NCBI RefSeq assembly: GCF_001590905.1
Contig: NZ_BCTT01000007.1
Span: forward strand, 248,001-312,000
Direction: 5' to 3'
Source: Serratia grimesii NBRC 13537
GTDB lineage: Bacteria > Pseudomonadota > Gammaproteobacteria > Enterobacterales > Enterobacteriaceae
DNA length: 64,000 nt
The notes under the pieces are model-generated. The model was given only the letters and a program-made list of their open reading frames with translations, was not told the DNA's origin and ran no database searches. The translations under genes and the position numbers were made by a program. Below are positions 58,019-64,000 of this stretch, one piece after another; the first letter of the stretch is position 1, and every line of letters begins with the position of its first letter.

Positions 58019-60199
58019 ATGAACCGAGAGGGGATTTTAAAACACATACCCTGGATGCTGCTGGGAATACTGGGCGCTTCCTGCCTGGGCGTAGTGGCAC
58101 TACGCCGCGGCGAGAACATCAGCGCCCTGTGGATCATCGTCGCCTCGGTGGCGGTGTATCTGGTGGCATACCGTTATTACAGCCTGTACATCGCCACCAA
58201 GGTGATGAAGCTGGATGCCTTCCGCGCGACCCCGGCGGTGGTTAACAACGACGGCCTTAACTACGTGCCGACCAACAAGAACGTGCTGTTCGGCCACCAC
58301 TTTGCTGCCATTGCCGGCGCAGGCCCGCTCGTCGGCCCGGTGTTGGCTGCGCAGGTCGGTTACCTGCCTGGTACATTGTGGCTGCTGGGTGGCGTGGTGT
58401 TGGCGGGGGCAGTGCAGGACTTTATGGTGCTGTTCATCTCCTCACGCCGCAACGGCGCATCGCTCGGTGAGATCATCAAAAAGGAAATGGGCCCCGTGCC
58501 GGGCACTATCGCGCTGTTTGGCTGCTTCCTGATCATGATCATCATCCTGGCGGTGCTGGCCCTGATCGTGGTGAAAGCACTGGCGGAAAGCCCGTGGGGC
58601 GTGTTCACCGTCTGTGCCACCGTGCCGATCGCCCTGTTTATGGGCATTTATATGCGCTTCCTGCGCCCTGGCCGGGTGGGTGAAGTGTCGGTCATTGGTA
58701 TCGTGCTGCTGGTGGCGTCCATCTGGTTCGGTGGCGTAATTGCCCACGACCCTTACTGGGGCCCGGCACTGACCTTTAAAGACACTACCATCACCTTTAC
58801 GCTGATTGGTTATGCGTTCGTTTCCGCCCTGCTGCCTGTGTGGCTGATCCTGGCACCACGCGACTATCTGGCGACCTTCCTGAAAATTGGTGTGATCGTC
58901 GGGCTGGCGATTGGCATCGTAATCCTCAACCCTGAACTGAAAATGCCAGCGGTGACCCAGTTTATCGACGGTACCGGCCCGGTGTGGAAGGGTTCGGTGT
59001 TCCCGTTCCTGTTCATTACCATCGCCTGTGGCGCAGTGTCCGGCTTCCATGCGCTGATCGCTTCCGGCACCACGCCGAAGCTGTTGGCCAATGAGAAAGA
59101 CGCACGCTTTATCGGTTACGGCGCGATGCTGATGGAGTCCTTCGTTGCCATCATGGCGCTGGTTGCGGCGTCCATCATCGAACCTGGCCTGTACTTCGCC
59201 ATGAACACCCCACCAGCAGCACTGGGCATCACCATGCCAGACCTGCACCGTTTGGGGACCGAAGACGCACCGATGATCATGGCGTCACTGCGTGATGTGA
59301 CTGCCCATGCGGCAGCGACCGTCAGTTCCTGGGGCTTTGTCATCAGTCCGGAACAGATCCTGCAAACCGCTAAAGATATCGGTGAACCTTCAGTGCTGAA
59401 CCGCGCCGGTGGTGCGCCTACGTTGGCGGTGGGTATTGCCCACGTGTTCCACCAGATCATTCCTGGTGCCAATATGGGCTTCTGGTACCACTTCGGTATT
59501 TTGTTTGAAGCACTGTTCATCCTGACCGCACTGGACGCAGGTACCCGTTCCGGCCGCTTTATGTTGCAGGACTTGCTGGGCAACTTTGCACCGTTCCTGA
59601 AAAAAACCGACTCGCTGGTTGCCGGTATTGTCGGCACCGCAGGCTGCGTCGGTCTATGGGGTTACCTGCTGTATCAAGGGGTGGTCGATCCGCTCGGTGG
59701 CGTGAAGAGCCTGTGGCCGCTGTTCGGCATCTCCAACCAGATGTTGGCTGCTGTAGCCTTGGTGCTGGGTACCGTGGTGCTGATTAAGATGAAACGCACC
59801 AAGTACATTTGGGTCACCGTGCTACCGGCGGTGTGGCTGCTGATTTGTACCACCTATGCGCTGGGTCTGAAGCTGTTCAGTGACAACCCGCAACTGGAAG
59901 GCTTCTTCTTCCAGGCCGGTGAGTACAAGCGCAAAATCGCCGAAGGTGGTGCCGAGCTGACCGCTCAGCAAGTGGCTAACATGAACCATATCGTGGTGAA
60001 CAACTACACCAACGCCGGGCTGAGCATTCTGTTCCTGCTGGTGGTGTACAGCATCATCTTCTACGGGGTGAAAACTGCCATGGCGGCGCACAAAAACCCG
60101 AACCGCACTGACCAGGAAACGCCATACGTGCCGGTGCCTGAAGAAACGCCTGCCAAGGGCATAACTGAAGGAGACGTCAAGGTTTCACCGCAGCACTGA
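58019..60199 (+). CDS. btsT: Pyruvate/H+ symporter, CstA family (BtsT)
   Basis: A 726-residue membrane transporter with about 16-18 spans. The sequence is almost colinear with E. coli BtsT (YjiY): KHIPWMLLGILGA, NNDGLNYVPTNKNVLFGHHFAAIAGAGPLVGPVLAAQ, FHALIASGTTPKLL, LDAGTRSGRFMLQDLLGN. It takes up pyruvate. yjiX and yjiA follow as in E. coli, which separates it from the CstA-ybdD locus. Two ERIC copies lie between it and yjiX. Confidence 0.95.
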   Translation: MNREGILKHIPWMLLGILGASCLGVVALRRGENISALWIIVASVAVYLVAYRYYSLYIATKVMKLDAFRATPAVVNNDGLNYVPTNKNVLFGHHFAAIAGAGPLVGPVLAAQVGYLPGTLWLLGGVVLAGAVQDFMVLFISSRRNGASLGEIIKKEMGPVPGTIALFGCFLIMIIILAVLALIVVKALAESPWGVFTVCATVPIALFMGIYMRFLRPGRVGEVSVIGIVLLVASIWFGGVIAHDPYWGPALTFKDTTITFTLIGYAFVSALLPVWLILAPRDYLATFLKIGVIVGLAIGIVILNPELKMPAVTQFIDGTGPVWKGSVFPFLFITIACGAVSGFHALIASGTTPKLLANEKDARFIGYGAMLMESFVAIMALVAASIIEPGLYFAMNTPPAALGITMPDLHRLGTEDAPMIMASLRDVTAHAAATVSSWGFVISPEQILQTAKDIGEPSVLNRAGGAPTLAVGIAHVFHQIIPGANMGFWYHFGILFEALFILTALDAGTRSGRFMLQDLLGNFAPFLKKTDSLVAGIVGTAGCVGLWGYLLYQGVVDPLGGVKSLWPLFGISNQMLAAVALVLGTVVLIKMKRTKYIWVTVLPAVWLLICTTYALGLKLFSDNPQLEGFFFQAGEYKRKIAEGGAELTAQQVANMNHIVVNNYTNAGLSILFLLVVYSIIFYGVKTAMAAHKNPNRTDQETPYVPVPEETPAKGITEGDVKVSPQH

Positions 60200-61700: not shown

Positions 61701-61845
61701 TTTTAGGTAATCCGCAAGGGCCATTGGCGATGATAACAATGGCCGCCGAACGTGATAATTTCGAGCCACATTCCAGACCTTACAGTAACCTACCTGTAAT
61801 TCTATACATTCTGTTTTTTAGCCTTCCTGCCAGCGCTATAGTCTG

Positions 61846-62034
61846 TTGGCTGCGGCACAATCCGCAGCCGGAGTTAGCGTTCCGAATCCCCCAACCCTGT
61901 CCGAATATGATATAAATTCGGGCATGCCGATGCGCACCCAAACAATGGTGGCTCGGGTGGTGCTTCCTTCGGGAAGGCCGGGATCCGTTGGGGCCGGTAC
62001 GCTAACGCCGCTCGAGCTACCACCCCGAGTTTAG
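61846..62034 (+). CDS. Possible Ash-family (P4-like satellite) small ORF
   Basis: An open frame from a TTG to 62034 with SAAGVSVPNPP and TMVARVVLPSGRPGSVGAGT resembles the repeated layout of Ash-family proteins found in P4-like satellite phages. There is no good ribosome site and the N-terminus looks eroded, so a remnant is as likely as a gene. The surrounding 61701-62065 gap holds nothing else clear. Confidence 0.3.
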   Translation: MAAAQSAAGVSVPNPPTLSEYDINSGMPMRTQTMVARVVLPSGRPGSVGAGTLTPLELPPRV

Positions 62035-62065
62035 CGTCTCTTCTGGTAGCGGTATTTCTCTCCCA

Positions 62066-62407
62066 ATGGAAATGACCGATATGGAAAATACTAGTCAAAA
62101 CATAGCGTCAGAAATGGTTACAAACACCGTGACTCTCTATCGAGAGCTGTTCAATCGAATTGATTTACATGAATTAACACCATCACAACTTCTCGATCTG
62201 GCAGCATTGTCAGCAGAACAAACTGAAGGCTTATGCAATGGATTGATGCTTTTCAATGAACTTTTGCAGACAAACTCCCAGTCCAATATCTTAGACTCGG
62301 AGCAGCTAAACAGTTATCTGAGCGCAACCGCGCACCTGCTTCCAGTACTATGTAACCTACATGGCCGGGCATTGAGAGAAATGGAATATCACGAAGTCAT
62401 AAAGTAA
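62066..62407 (+). CDS. Hypothetical protein
   Basis: A 113-residue, mostly helical soluble protein (LYRELFNRIDLHELTPSQLLDLAALSAEQTEGLCNGLMLFNELL, YLSATAHLLPVLCNLHGRALREMEYHEVIK). No signal peptide, span or known motif. The ATG at 62066 is used; one at 62081 is possible. AT content is higher than in the flanking btsT-yjiA genes, in line with acquired DNA. It ends in a strong hairpin at 62433. It may belong to the mobile segment. Confidence 0.6.
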   Translation: MEMTDMENTSQNIASEMVTNTVTLYRELFNRIDLHELTPSQLLDLAALSAEQTEGLCNGLMLFNELLQTNSQSNILDSEQLNSYLSATAHLLPVLCNLHGRALREMEYHEVIK

Positions 62408-62432
62408 CGTTCTGGCTTCATGCGAACAATCA

Positions 62433-62464
62433 ACAACAGGGCAGGTTTCAACCTGCCCTGTTGT
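62433..62464. terminator. 14-bp perfect hairpin after the hypothetical gene
   Basis: ACAACAGGGCAGGT-TTCA-ACCTGCCCTGTTGT. Very stable; placed 25 bp after the stop codon and before the methyltransferase promoter. Confidence 0.7.
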
Positions 62465-62496
62465 ATCAGGTCCAAACCACTCATTTACAGCCATTG

Positions 62497-62516
62497 TACT
62501 GGATATTTATCCAGAC
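62497..62516. promoter_or_regulatory. LexA (SOS) box candidate
   Basis: TACTGGATATTTATCCAGAC has the CTG-N10-CAG core of LexA sites and an AT-rich centre; about 15 of 20 positions match the consensus. It covers the -35 region of the promoter whose -10 is at 62531. Confidence 0.55.
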
Positions 62517-62530
62517 ATCTTTCAACTGGG

Positions 62531-62554
62531 TATAATGAGTGATAGGCTATCACT
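62531..62554 (+). promoter_or_regulatory. Methyltransferase promoter -10 and 17-bp palindrome
   Basis: TATAAT at 62531-62536 is a consensus -10 box. Directly after it lies the perfect palindrome AGTGATAG-G-CTATCACT (62538-62554), around the expected transcription start and 28 bp before the ATG. It is a likely operator, for example for self-repression by the methyltransferase as reported for M.EcoRII. Confidence 0.55.
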
Positions 62555-62582
62555 AAATCATTCCTAATTTGGAAGAGTCATT

Positions 62583-64000
62583 ATGCAAGAGTTGCATGAG
62601 CGTGCAAAAAATCTTCGTGCCGAAGCAGAACAACAACAGTTAGTCCAGCAGGAAGAAGACAAGGCACTCGTCGAAAAACTGGCGGGGATTTACGATCAGA
62701 AAGCCATCGCTGAGCTTCTGCGTGAAGTCAGTGGCAGCAGCGAATGGACACGAGAGTCTCTCAATCGCTGGCTTAAAGGGAAAACACCGCAAAAGGTTCT
62801 GACAGAAAGAGAGGTGGAATTCCTGCGAACAATGTTACCAAAACCTTCGCCGTTTCATCCGAACTATAAGTTTCGTTTTATCGACCTGTTTGCAGGTATC
62901 GGCGGTATTCGTAAAGGGTTCGAAGAGATTGGTGGACAATGCGTGTTTACCAGCGAATGGAACAAAGAAGCCGTTCGTACCTATAAAGCTAACTGGTACT
63001 GTGATCCCGAACATCACAAGTTCAATTCGGATATTCGCGAAATAACCCTTAGCGAAAATGATGATATTTCCGTTCAGGAAGCATATAAAAATATCGATAA
63101 AGAAATCCCTGATCATGATGTTCTGTTGGCAGGTTTTCCATGCCAACCTTTTTCCCTTGCAGGTGTATCAAAGAAGAACTCTTTGGGGAGAGCTCACGGT
63201 TTTGAGTGTGAAACCCAGGGAACATTATTCTTTGACGTAGCTCGAATTATTGCTGCTAAAAAGCCGGCAATTTTCCTTCTCGAAAACGTCAAAAACCTTA
63301 AGAGCCATGATAAAGGGAAGACATTCAAAATTATCATGGAAACACTGGATGAATTGGGTTACGAAGTTGCTGATGCTCAGGCTACTGGCGCTGGCGATCC
63401 TAAAATCATCGATGGGAAAAATTTCTTACCTCAGCACCGCGAACGCATCGTATTGGTTGGATTCCGTCGTGATTTGAATATTCATGGTGATTTTTCACTC
63501 AAAAACTTGAGTCAGTTCTTCCCGAAAAAAAGACCATCATTTGGTGAACTCCTGCTCAAGGATGTTCCTCAAAAATATATTCTTACAGAGCATCTGTGGA
63601 AGTATCTTTATAACTATGCAAAAAAACACCAGGCAAAAGGTAATGGTTTTGGCTTTGGTTTAGTTGATCCGAAAAATGAATCAAGTGTTGCCAGAACGCT
63701 TTCAGCCCGCTACCACAAAGATGGCTCTGAGATCTTGATTGATCGGGGCTGGGATATGGAGCTTGGCGAGAAAGATTTTTCAGATCCTGAAAACCAAGCC
63801 AATCGACCCCGCCGTTTAACACCAAAAGAATGTGCCCGAATTATGGGATTCGAGATTCCAGGTGGAGCAGACTTCTACATCCCAGTATCAGACACTCAGG
63901 CATACCGGCAGTTCGGTAACTCAGTAATTGTGCCGGCATTTGCAGCCGTAGCTAAGTTACTGGAGCCTTACATTGTTTCAGCTGTTTCAAAAGACAAAAG
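62583..64000 (+). CDS. DNA cytosine-5 methyltransferase, M.EcoRII/Dcm type (3' partial)
   Basis: At least 472 residues, running off the window end. All C5-methyltransferase motifs are present: [26 protein letters not shown] with catalytic C187, [33 protein letters not shown]. The target is expected to be CCWGG. The N-terminus ([25 protein letters not shown]) and [23 protein letters not shown] match M.EcoRII as I recall it better than E. coli Dcm. That points to a restriction-modification enzyme. GGAAGAG lies upstream of the ATG. The AT-richer codon use suggests transfer. A partner nuclease gene is not in the window. Confidence 0.9.

Follow-up and report, generated by a model that had tools for sequence, protein, structure and literature searches.

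The last kilobases of a 64,000-nt stretch of Serratia grimesii DNA (the window; C7:248001-312000, taken from a genome of 5.07 Mb in 40 contigs) lead into what is very probably an EcoRII-type restriction-modification (R-M) operon, which carries its own repair gene and sits beside the PDC-M33ABC genes in the immigration-control hotspot of the genus, an interval that runs from yjiA to tRNA-Leu/lptG. Contig C7 extends 3.7 kb past the window end, and positions there are given in L002 coordinates, where the window position equals the L002 position + 59999. The operon comprises a methyltransferase gene (M), a vsr gene (V) and a nuclease gene (R), which follow one another on the + strand and are referred to below as M-V-R:

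62538..62554, + strand: palindrome AGTGATAG-G-CTATCACT ahead of M, candidate operator
62583-64013 (L002 2584-4014), + strand: M, C5-cytosine methyltransferase of Dcm/EcoRII type, 476 aa, first gene of M-V-R, running 13 nt beyond the window
L002 4023-4496, + strand: V, vsr, 157 aa (PF03852, 1.9e-31; 1cw0, E 1.2e-62)
L002 4489-5724, + strand: R, EcoRII-C nuclease, 411 aa (PF09019, 2.6e-62), EcoRII by sequence

The vsr start lies 8 bases past the M stop, and the vsr and R genes share 8 bp where they meet. The original prediction, read from the letters of the window, expected a nuclease gene and perhaps other defence genes beyond its end, and both are found there: the EcoRII-C gene, followed by PDC-M33A, PDC-M33B and PDC-M33C as candidates named by PADLOC. 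Its proposal of an EcoRII-type partner stands with respect to the nuclease family; the gene order is tandem and includes vsr here but is convergent for R and M in the plasmid EcoRII-type pairs seen. A vsr gene beside M had been taken as a contrary sign. Such a gene is present, between M and R, and so it does not separate Dcm from R-M enzymes here.

As components of an EcoRII-type system, M would methylate the inner cytosine of host CCWGG, and R, with B3-fold N-terminal and EcoRII-C domains, would cut incoming unmethylated CCWGG DNA. Vsr would nick T:G mismatches arising from 5-methylcytosine deamination in CCWGG, while M probably uses its N-terminal domain to repress its promoter through the upstream palindrome, and PDC-M33ABC is probably accessory to a system of this kind.

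The nuclease, its relatives and the M33 module

Sequence comparison aligns R with the EcoRII structures 3hqg (8.5e-39) and 1na6 (4e-38) in its C-terminal half only. A structural model of the Xenorhabdus R homologue, which is 62% identical to R, was built from 33 sequences (predicted local distance difference test score, pLDDT, 87.9) and superposes on the catalytic domain of 3hqg with Z 26.0 across 218 residues. The same model superposes on the N-terminal effector domain 3hqf with Z 11.1 (root-mean-square deviation, rmsd, 3.2 over 147 residues), where other B3 domains mostly reach Z 8-10. Judged from the fold of this homologue, R is predicted to have the architecture of EcoRII, with an N-terminal B3-fold domain that has strongly diverged. 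Residues D309, K334 and E347, which we take to be catalytic, are invariant in nine R proteins (own included) and in the set of 33. Plasmid EcoRII-type R-M systems, such as that of the Yokenella plasmid pYRW13-131 (L071), share with the operon a C5 methyltransferase (73% identical), an EcoRII-C nuclease and, by the homologue's model, the combination of a B3-fold and a catalytic domain; their R is 39% identical to own R across residues 171-403.

Relatives of R were sought in genome contigs, where a single-protein scan returned 15 pattern stretches and no relative, and a scan with the alignment of nine R proteins returned at least 575 relatives. In the 80 best, which were retained, M is always close to R; vsr was found in 70, and the three genes stand in M-V-R order on one strand in 51 by gene centres (43 by a stricter count). 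Burkholderia phage KL3 also carries M-V-R. The operons of Xenorhabdus, Pseudomonas and KL3 have the same order and the same nuclease family, with V and R overlapping or abutting, but they occupy other genomic places; the KL3 M is also shorter (422 aa, 49% identical), and its R is 41% identical to own R. The operon is a further member of this widespread family.

Downstream of R, on the opposite strand, lies the M33 module:

L002 5809-6534, - strand: PDC-M33C (DUF6339), named by PADLOC
L002 6534-7367, - strand: PDC-M33B, named by PADLOC
L002 7351-7719, - strand: 3' part of PDC-M33A, the larger part being at C8:2-1597 (- strand)

All three components (A, B and C) are present together, with M33A spread over two contigs: a contig end splits the gene, and its larger piece opens contig C8. 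We infer the contig order C7-C8 from these two pieces. At the start of C8 (L007:1-89) a TGCCTG hexanucleotide repeat of 14.8 perfect copies encodes a Gly-Thr run within M33A; it probably broke the assembly, and its length may vary.

Among the 80 relatives kept, M33ABC is present in three: two Marinobacter loci, where the module separates V from R, and one further locus, where it precedes R (L083, L085 and L133). This placement is the best evidence for joint working, and M33 and M-V-R probably work together. In a stronger version of this association, M-V-R and M33ABC would belong to a single larger MORC/paraMORC-like system that depends on ATP, with R as its effector and not a free-standing type II enzyme. 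Both Marinobacter loci have the one-strand order M-V-M33A-M33B-M33C-R, and in another genome of the genus (G018) M-V and then R are accompanied by an opposite-strand EcoRII-N protein, an SNF2-type helicase and an MzaB-like gene. Systems that join a GHKL ATPase to SWI2/SNF2 helicases, EcoRII-like nucleases, methylases and Vsr have been described (PMC2292703). We nonetheless consider this alternative unlikely: the module is present in 3/80 relatives and M-V-R usually stands alone, R appears to retain both EcoRII domains, and the GHKL nature of M33A consists of GHKL-like motifs recognized by eye, for which searches of M33A against Pfam and PDB sequences gave nothing credible. M33C likewise gave nothing credible against PDB sequences, and its scan of viral contigs returned 36 pattern stretches and no relative.

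It is less likely still that the locus is a decaying island of leftover genes whose R is no longer made or active. The contig break inside M33A would fit such decay, as would the separation of V and R by a 314-bp gap in one relative, but M, V and R are full length, contain no stops and retain the family-invariant residues. Immediately ahead of M (L002:2501-2575), own genome and G018 agree in 74/75 bases, and the C4 RNA stretch further upstream is conserved still more (150/150).

The methyltransferase and its predicted target

M contains the C5-methyltransferase domain PF00145 (2.4e-77) and the N-terminal DNA_meth_N domain (PF18284, 3.5e-20). Its relationships were addressed with two trees. In the first (34 proteins), M groups with the methyltransferases of G018, Xenorhabdus, Yokenella, the plasmid EcoRII-type systems and Acinetobacter (an MvaI partner) with support of 96/96, and E. 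coli Dcm falls outside. The second, also of 34 proteins, includes 18 of the 19 relatives of M found across the order. Here, E. coli Dcm and 12 proteins with no EcoRII-C gene in the ~1.5-kb flank form a clade of 13 (96/92), and own M lies outside that clade among R-M methyltransferases, with its exact sister not resolved. As originally proposed, these trees place M as an EcoRII-type R-M methyltransferase and not as a solitary Dcm.

That M and V are instead a housekeeping Dcm-Vsr pair as in E. coli, set by chance next to a nuclease gene that is not their partner, is highly improbable: M does pass the cut-off of NF007772 'DNA cytosine methylase' (876.6 bits), is the only C5-methyltransferase of the genome (the sole PF00145 match in the whole genome) and has vsr directly 3' as in E. 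coli, but the clade that unites Dcm with the M proteins lacking a flanking EcoRII-C gene excludes it, vsr overlaps R, M-V-R recurs among the relatives of R, and own-type M is patchy, being present at the site in 2/26 genus genomes. The only such protein outside the Dcm clade, that of G257, has an MvaI-type nuclease gene after V. The overlapping EcoRII-C gene, the two trees and the uneven distribution of M thus led to the rejection of a solitary Dcm.

The locus of G257 (L198:6578-9947) contains the nearest M outside the genus (78-79%), with V (67%) and then a nuclease gene of the MvaI/BcnI family (PF15515, 8.6e-46) behind it. The loci across the order in which M-V stands alone were judged on the ~1.5-kb flank, except for G141, where 15.6 kb beside M-V contained no match to R.

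An alignment of M, E. coli Dcm and the plasmid EcoRII-type M reveals close similarity across the presumed target-recognition region, and CCWGG is for this reason the best guess for the target of M. The palindrome AGTGATAG-G-CTATCACT is the putative operator of M. AGTG-N9-CACT precedes M in three of four Xenorhabdus operons and GGTG-N9-CACT in the fourth, and the EcoRII methyltransferase is described as repressing its own gene (PMC12707154).

Several observations weigh against an EcoRII-type operon acting with M33. The Pfam EcoRII-N model misses the N-terminal half of R in a Pfam scan, so that this domain is tied to EcoRII by fold only. The full-length fit to 1na6 is loose (rmsd 10.8 across 341 residues), which indicates that the domains are placed otherwise than in EcoRII. 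Across the order, 14 of the 19 relatives of M have no EcoRII-C gene in the ~1.5-kb flank, making M-V without such a gene the commoner arrangement, as the Dcm-Vsr alternative would have it. M33 is on the opposite strand here and need not be part of the operon, and the structure prediction for M33A (pLDDT 35) is unusable. Finally, CCWGG occurs at 0.76 of expectation and CCSGG at 0.98 in own genome (window 1-61700 + L007:2001-20000), where the regions downstream of yjiA in 24 relatives give 0.89 and 1.06, and that of G018 gives 0.84 for CCWGG. This depletion is weak, amounting to a small difference between unmatched regions.

The hotspot between yjiA and tRNA-Leu/lptG

Upstream of the operon, the window contains the left anchor of the hotspot and a short conserved block:

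58019-60199: btsT-like open reading frame (ORF), named by position as in E. coli
60486-60722: yjiX-like ORF, named by position as in E. coli
60735..61700, + strand: yjiA (GTPase), left anchor of the hotspot (NF008578, 586.8 bits, cut-off 361; 9.8e-177)
61941..62027, + strand: C4 antisense RNA (RF01695; 76.3 bits, gathering score 45)
62066..62407, + strand: orf113, a 113-aa ORF, companion of the C4 RNA, weakly phrog_19484-like
62433..62464, + strand: perfect inverted repeat with 15-nt arms in the interval between orf113 and M, terminator-like on the - strand

The btsT-like and yjiX-like ORFs match the NCBIfam CstA and KCU-star families, respectively, with scores under the cut-offs. The order first noted for this side, btsT-yjiX-yjiA followed by a phage-like remnant, an unknown gene and a C5-methyltransferase, is borne out on the + strand. 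Beyond M33A, contig C8 continues with a HipA-like gene, a carbonic-anhydrase-like gene (can; 91 bits, under the cut-off of 251), tRNA-Leu(CAA), lptG (465.5 bits, cut-off 240), lptF and a leucyl aminopeptidase gene (pepA).

A yjiA orthologue was found in 26 of 30 genus genomes (89-100% identity), and slices of up to 20 kb downstream of yjiA were taken from the 25 other than own, one of them 8 kb long and ended by its contig. The right side of the interval (can-like gene or lptG) is reached in 14 of the 26 genomes, own included, and tRNA-Leu(CAA), presumably leuX, lies near lptG in own genome and three others looked at. Of the relatives' 25 slices, 21 contain orf113; 21 of the 25 were scanned for the C4 RNA, which adjoins the orf113 homologue in 18. 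The C4 RNA and orf113 are a regular part of the site, not random debris. The phage-like remnant reported after yjiA corresponds to this pair; orf113 has a weak PHROG match (1.9e-5) and matches none of 50,697 phage records at E 1e-3. An orf113-like ORF (37%) also lies near the M-V genes of G257, at L198:4389-4757.

Inspection of the slices reveals that variable restriction genes adjoin yjiA across the 26 genomes compared. An Mrr gene of cluster c14 occurs in six slices, type I genes occur in ten (by cluster, with representatives scanned) and lie beyond can in G007, and Zorya genes occur in one. In the G022 slice a C5 methyltransferase and vsr accompany MzaC/D/E-like genes. The order downstream of yjiA in E. 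coli ER1709 is mrr, hsdR, hsdM, hsdS, symE and mcrB, and one scanned copy of the relatives' Mrr gene has 70% DNA identity to E. coli mrr. The site thus corresponds to the immigration control region of E. coli, as had been suspected, and its defence genes differ between strains without the same methyltransferase in all of them. Two further observations concern this comparison. A second EcoRII-type pair of the genus, with convergent M (71%) and R, lies on a 44-kb contig (L009, G022:C1), and a CdiA-CT RNase A domain (PF18431) was recognized in the one scanned copy of a 275-aa protein encoded before orf113 at L054:2126-2950 and in three other slices.

The interval shares with the E. coli immigration control region and Hotspot 37 the yjiA anchor, an mrr orthologue, type I R-M genes, variable defence genes and a tRNA-Leu(CAA) near lptG at the far side. 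In E. coli these are described as two distinct islands, the immigration control region between yjiA and yjiN and Hotspot 37 between leuX/lptG and uxuR, in contrast to the one interval from yjiA to tRNA-Leu/lptG found here; the table of major systems in that source (Table 3) has no type II system at either island (PMC12707154). The two islands appear to be merged in this genus, leaving one interval with the outer anchor of each (yjiA; tRNA-Leu/lptG).

Nuclease exchange and a candidate methylation switch

G018 carries the second own-type M at this place, and its comparison with own genome points to exchange of the nuclease. DNA identity is 91% in yjiA, 92% in C4-orf113, 93% in M and 89% in V; R has 58% DNA and 54% protein identity. 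Similarity breaks at the vsr end, and the 314 bp before the G018 R match nothing else among the loci compared. The G018 R shares 71% identity with the R of Yokenella regensburgei (L081), own R is nearest to Xenorhabdus, and a clade of own R and G018 R is rejected (p-AU 1.5e-52). Among relatives with EcoRII-C partners, own M, V and R are all nearest to Xenorhabdus after G018 (for M with support of only 84/80), and the exchange of R is for this reason best placed in the lineage of G018. The genes 3' of R differ as well, M33 being found in own genome and the SNF2-type helicase group in G018, where the stand-alone EcoRII-N (B3) protein (PF09217) lies at L044:8238-8678 beside the helicase and the MzaB-like gene, opposite to R. 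Because the G018 R is of another lineage and the M-V of G257 is joined by an MvaI/BcnI-family nuclease, M-V appears to be the stable part of the system and R the changing part.

Most genomes of the genus have a different nuclease at the site. An HNH protein of ~372-374 aa (cluster c4) is present in 17/26 genomes and directly follows orf113 in the 15 slices where both are seen; the G001 copy lies past the slice end. In G008, alone among the genus genomes searched, c4 is split over two frames (G008:C1:543467-544569). The C-terminal part of c4 matches methyl-directed nucleases in PADLOC, and its HNH part matches only two solved structures, 6ghc and 5zmm, named 5-methylcytosine-specific restriction enzyme A and McrA, which we take to be TagI and ScoMcrA. 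A different HNH protein (c59, HNH_2) is present in G002 and G014.

A predicted promoter, TAGGCA-N17-CATAGT, was recognized by eye ahead of all 17 c4 and both c59 genes (19/19; TGGGCA in G024), where CCTGG forms the last five bases of the spacer and TGG-CATAGT reads as an extended -10. The promoter scan was run on the window only, and a c4-type promoter (8 of 12 matches) falls below its listing level. Matches to c59 occur at 19 loci across the order, 12 of them with a start that could be assigned: CCTGGCATAGT is kept with changed surroundings in three of the 12, from two other genera (one gene with an in-frame stop). The other nine have CATAGT without CCTGG (one), CCTGG ~111 bases upstream in other sequence (two) or neither (six). 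The idea that conservation of CCTGG is unusual in itself was weakened, in that among 11 other gene clusters one (PTS, c3) likewise shows a conserved CCWGG upstream (15/17 slices) and another shows one in part (6/9). Conservation is high throughout the block that surrounds the c4 site, and the copies of CCTGG in the genus are consequently not independent.

In Pectobacterium, a CCNGG methyltransferase is reported to silence an HNH nuclease gene through CCTGG over the extended -10 (PMC8989522). The PcaRCI/PcaRCII arrangement resembles the present one, as predicted from sequence, in that a C5 methyltransferase system of Dcm-like type is opposed to an HNH nuclease with CCTGG in the extended -10 of its promoter. 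It differs in that both systems coexist there and silencing was measured, whereas here c4 and the CCWGG-type system occur in different strains and silencing is a prediction. Searches of the open-access literature yielded no description of the M-V-R operon at this site, of the genus hotspot or of the promoter motif outside Pectobacterium.

C5 methyltransferases are present at the site in 8/26 genomes (own, G002, G003, G014, G015, G017, G018 and G022), none of them with c4; G017 has a partial HNH match only. That is, such a methyltransferase occurs in 0/17 genomes with c4 versus 8/9 without it (raw Fisher p 5.8e-6). Exclusion as a proven rule was nevertheless rejected: the yjiA tree gives four supported independent pairs, with a median p of 0.125. 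All ten slices with type I genes also have c4, so the pattern can be explained by linkage. PF00145 matches lie elsewhere in 4/17 genomes with c4 (G005, G013, G019 and G023, the last a 90-aa frame), both c59 genomes carry C5 methyltransferases at the site, and the order-wide test had no power, c4 being present in 1/295 genomes. The separation of c4 and C5 methyltransferases is suggestive only.

It is possible, though less likely than not, that the hotspot acts as an epigenetic switch. Most of the genus would carry a type IV-like HNH nuclease of one of two kinds under one conserved CCTGG promoter; an arriving CCWGG methyltransferase, such as M, would methylate the promoter site and silence this nuclease, which would then be lost, and the site would pass from restricting 5-methylcytosine to making it. 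R could later be exchanged with M-V kept, as in G018.

In a genus other than that of E. coli, the setting of the operon connects Hotspot 37 with the immigration control region and shows M-V retained while the partner nuclease changes. The relatives add that M-V-R operons elsewhere among bacteria contain the PDC-M33 genes, which are uncharacterised. If the switch is true, the silenced nuclease would otherwise attack the newly methylated genome, which would account for a C5 system settling at this site and suggests that silencing of a hostile nuclease as in Pectobacterium may be a general route by which C5 systems become established.

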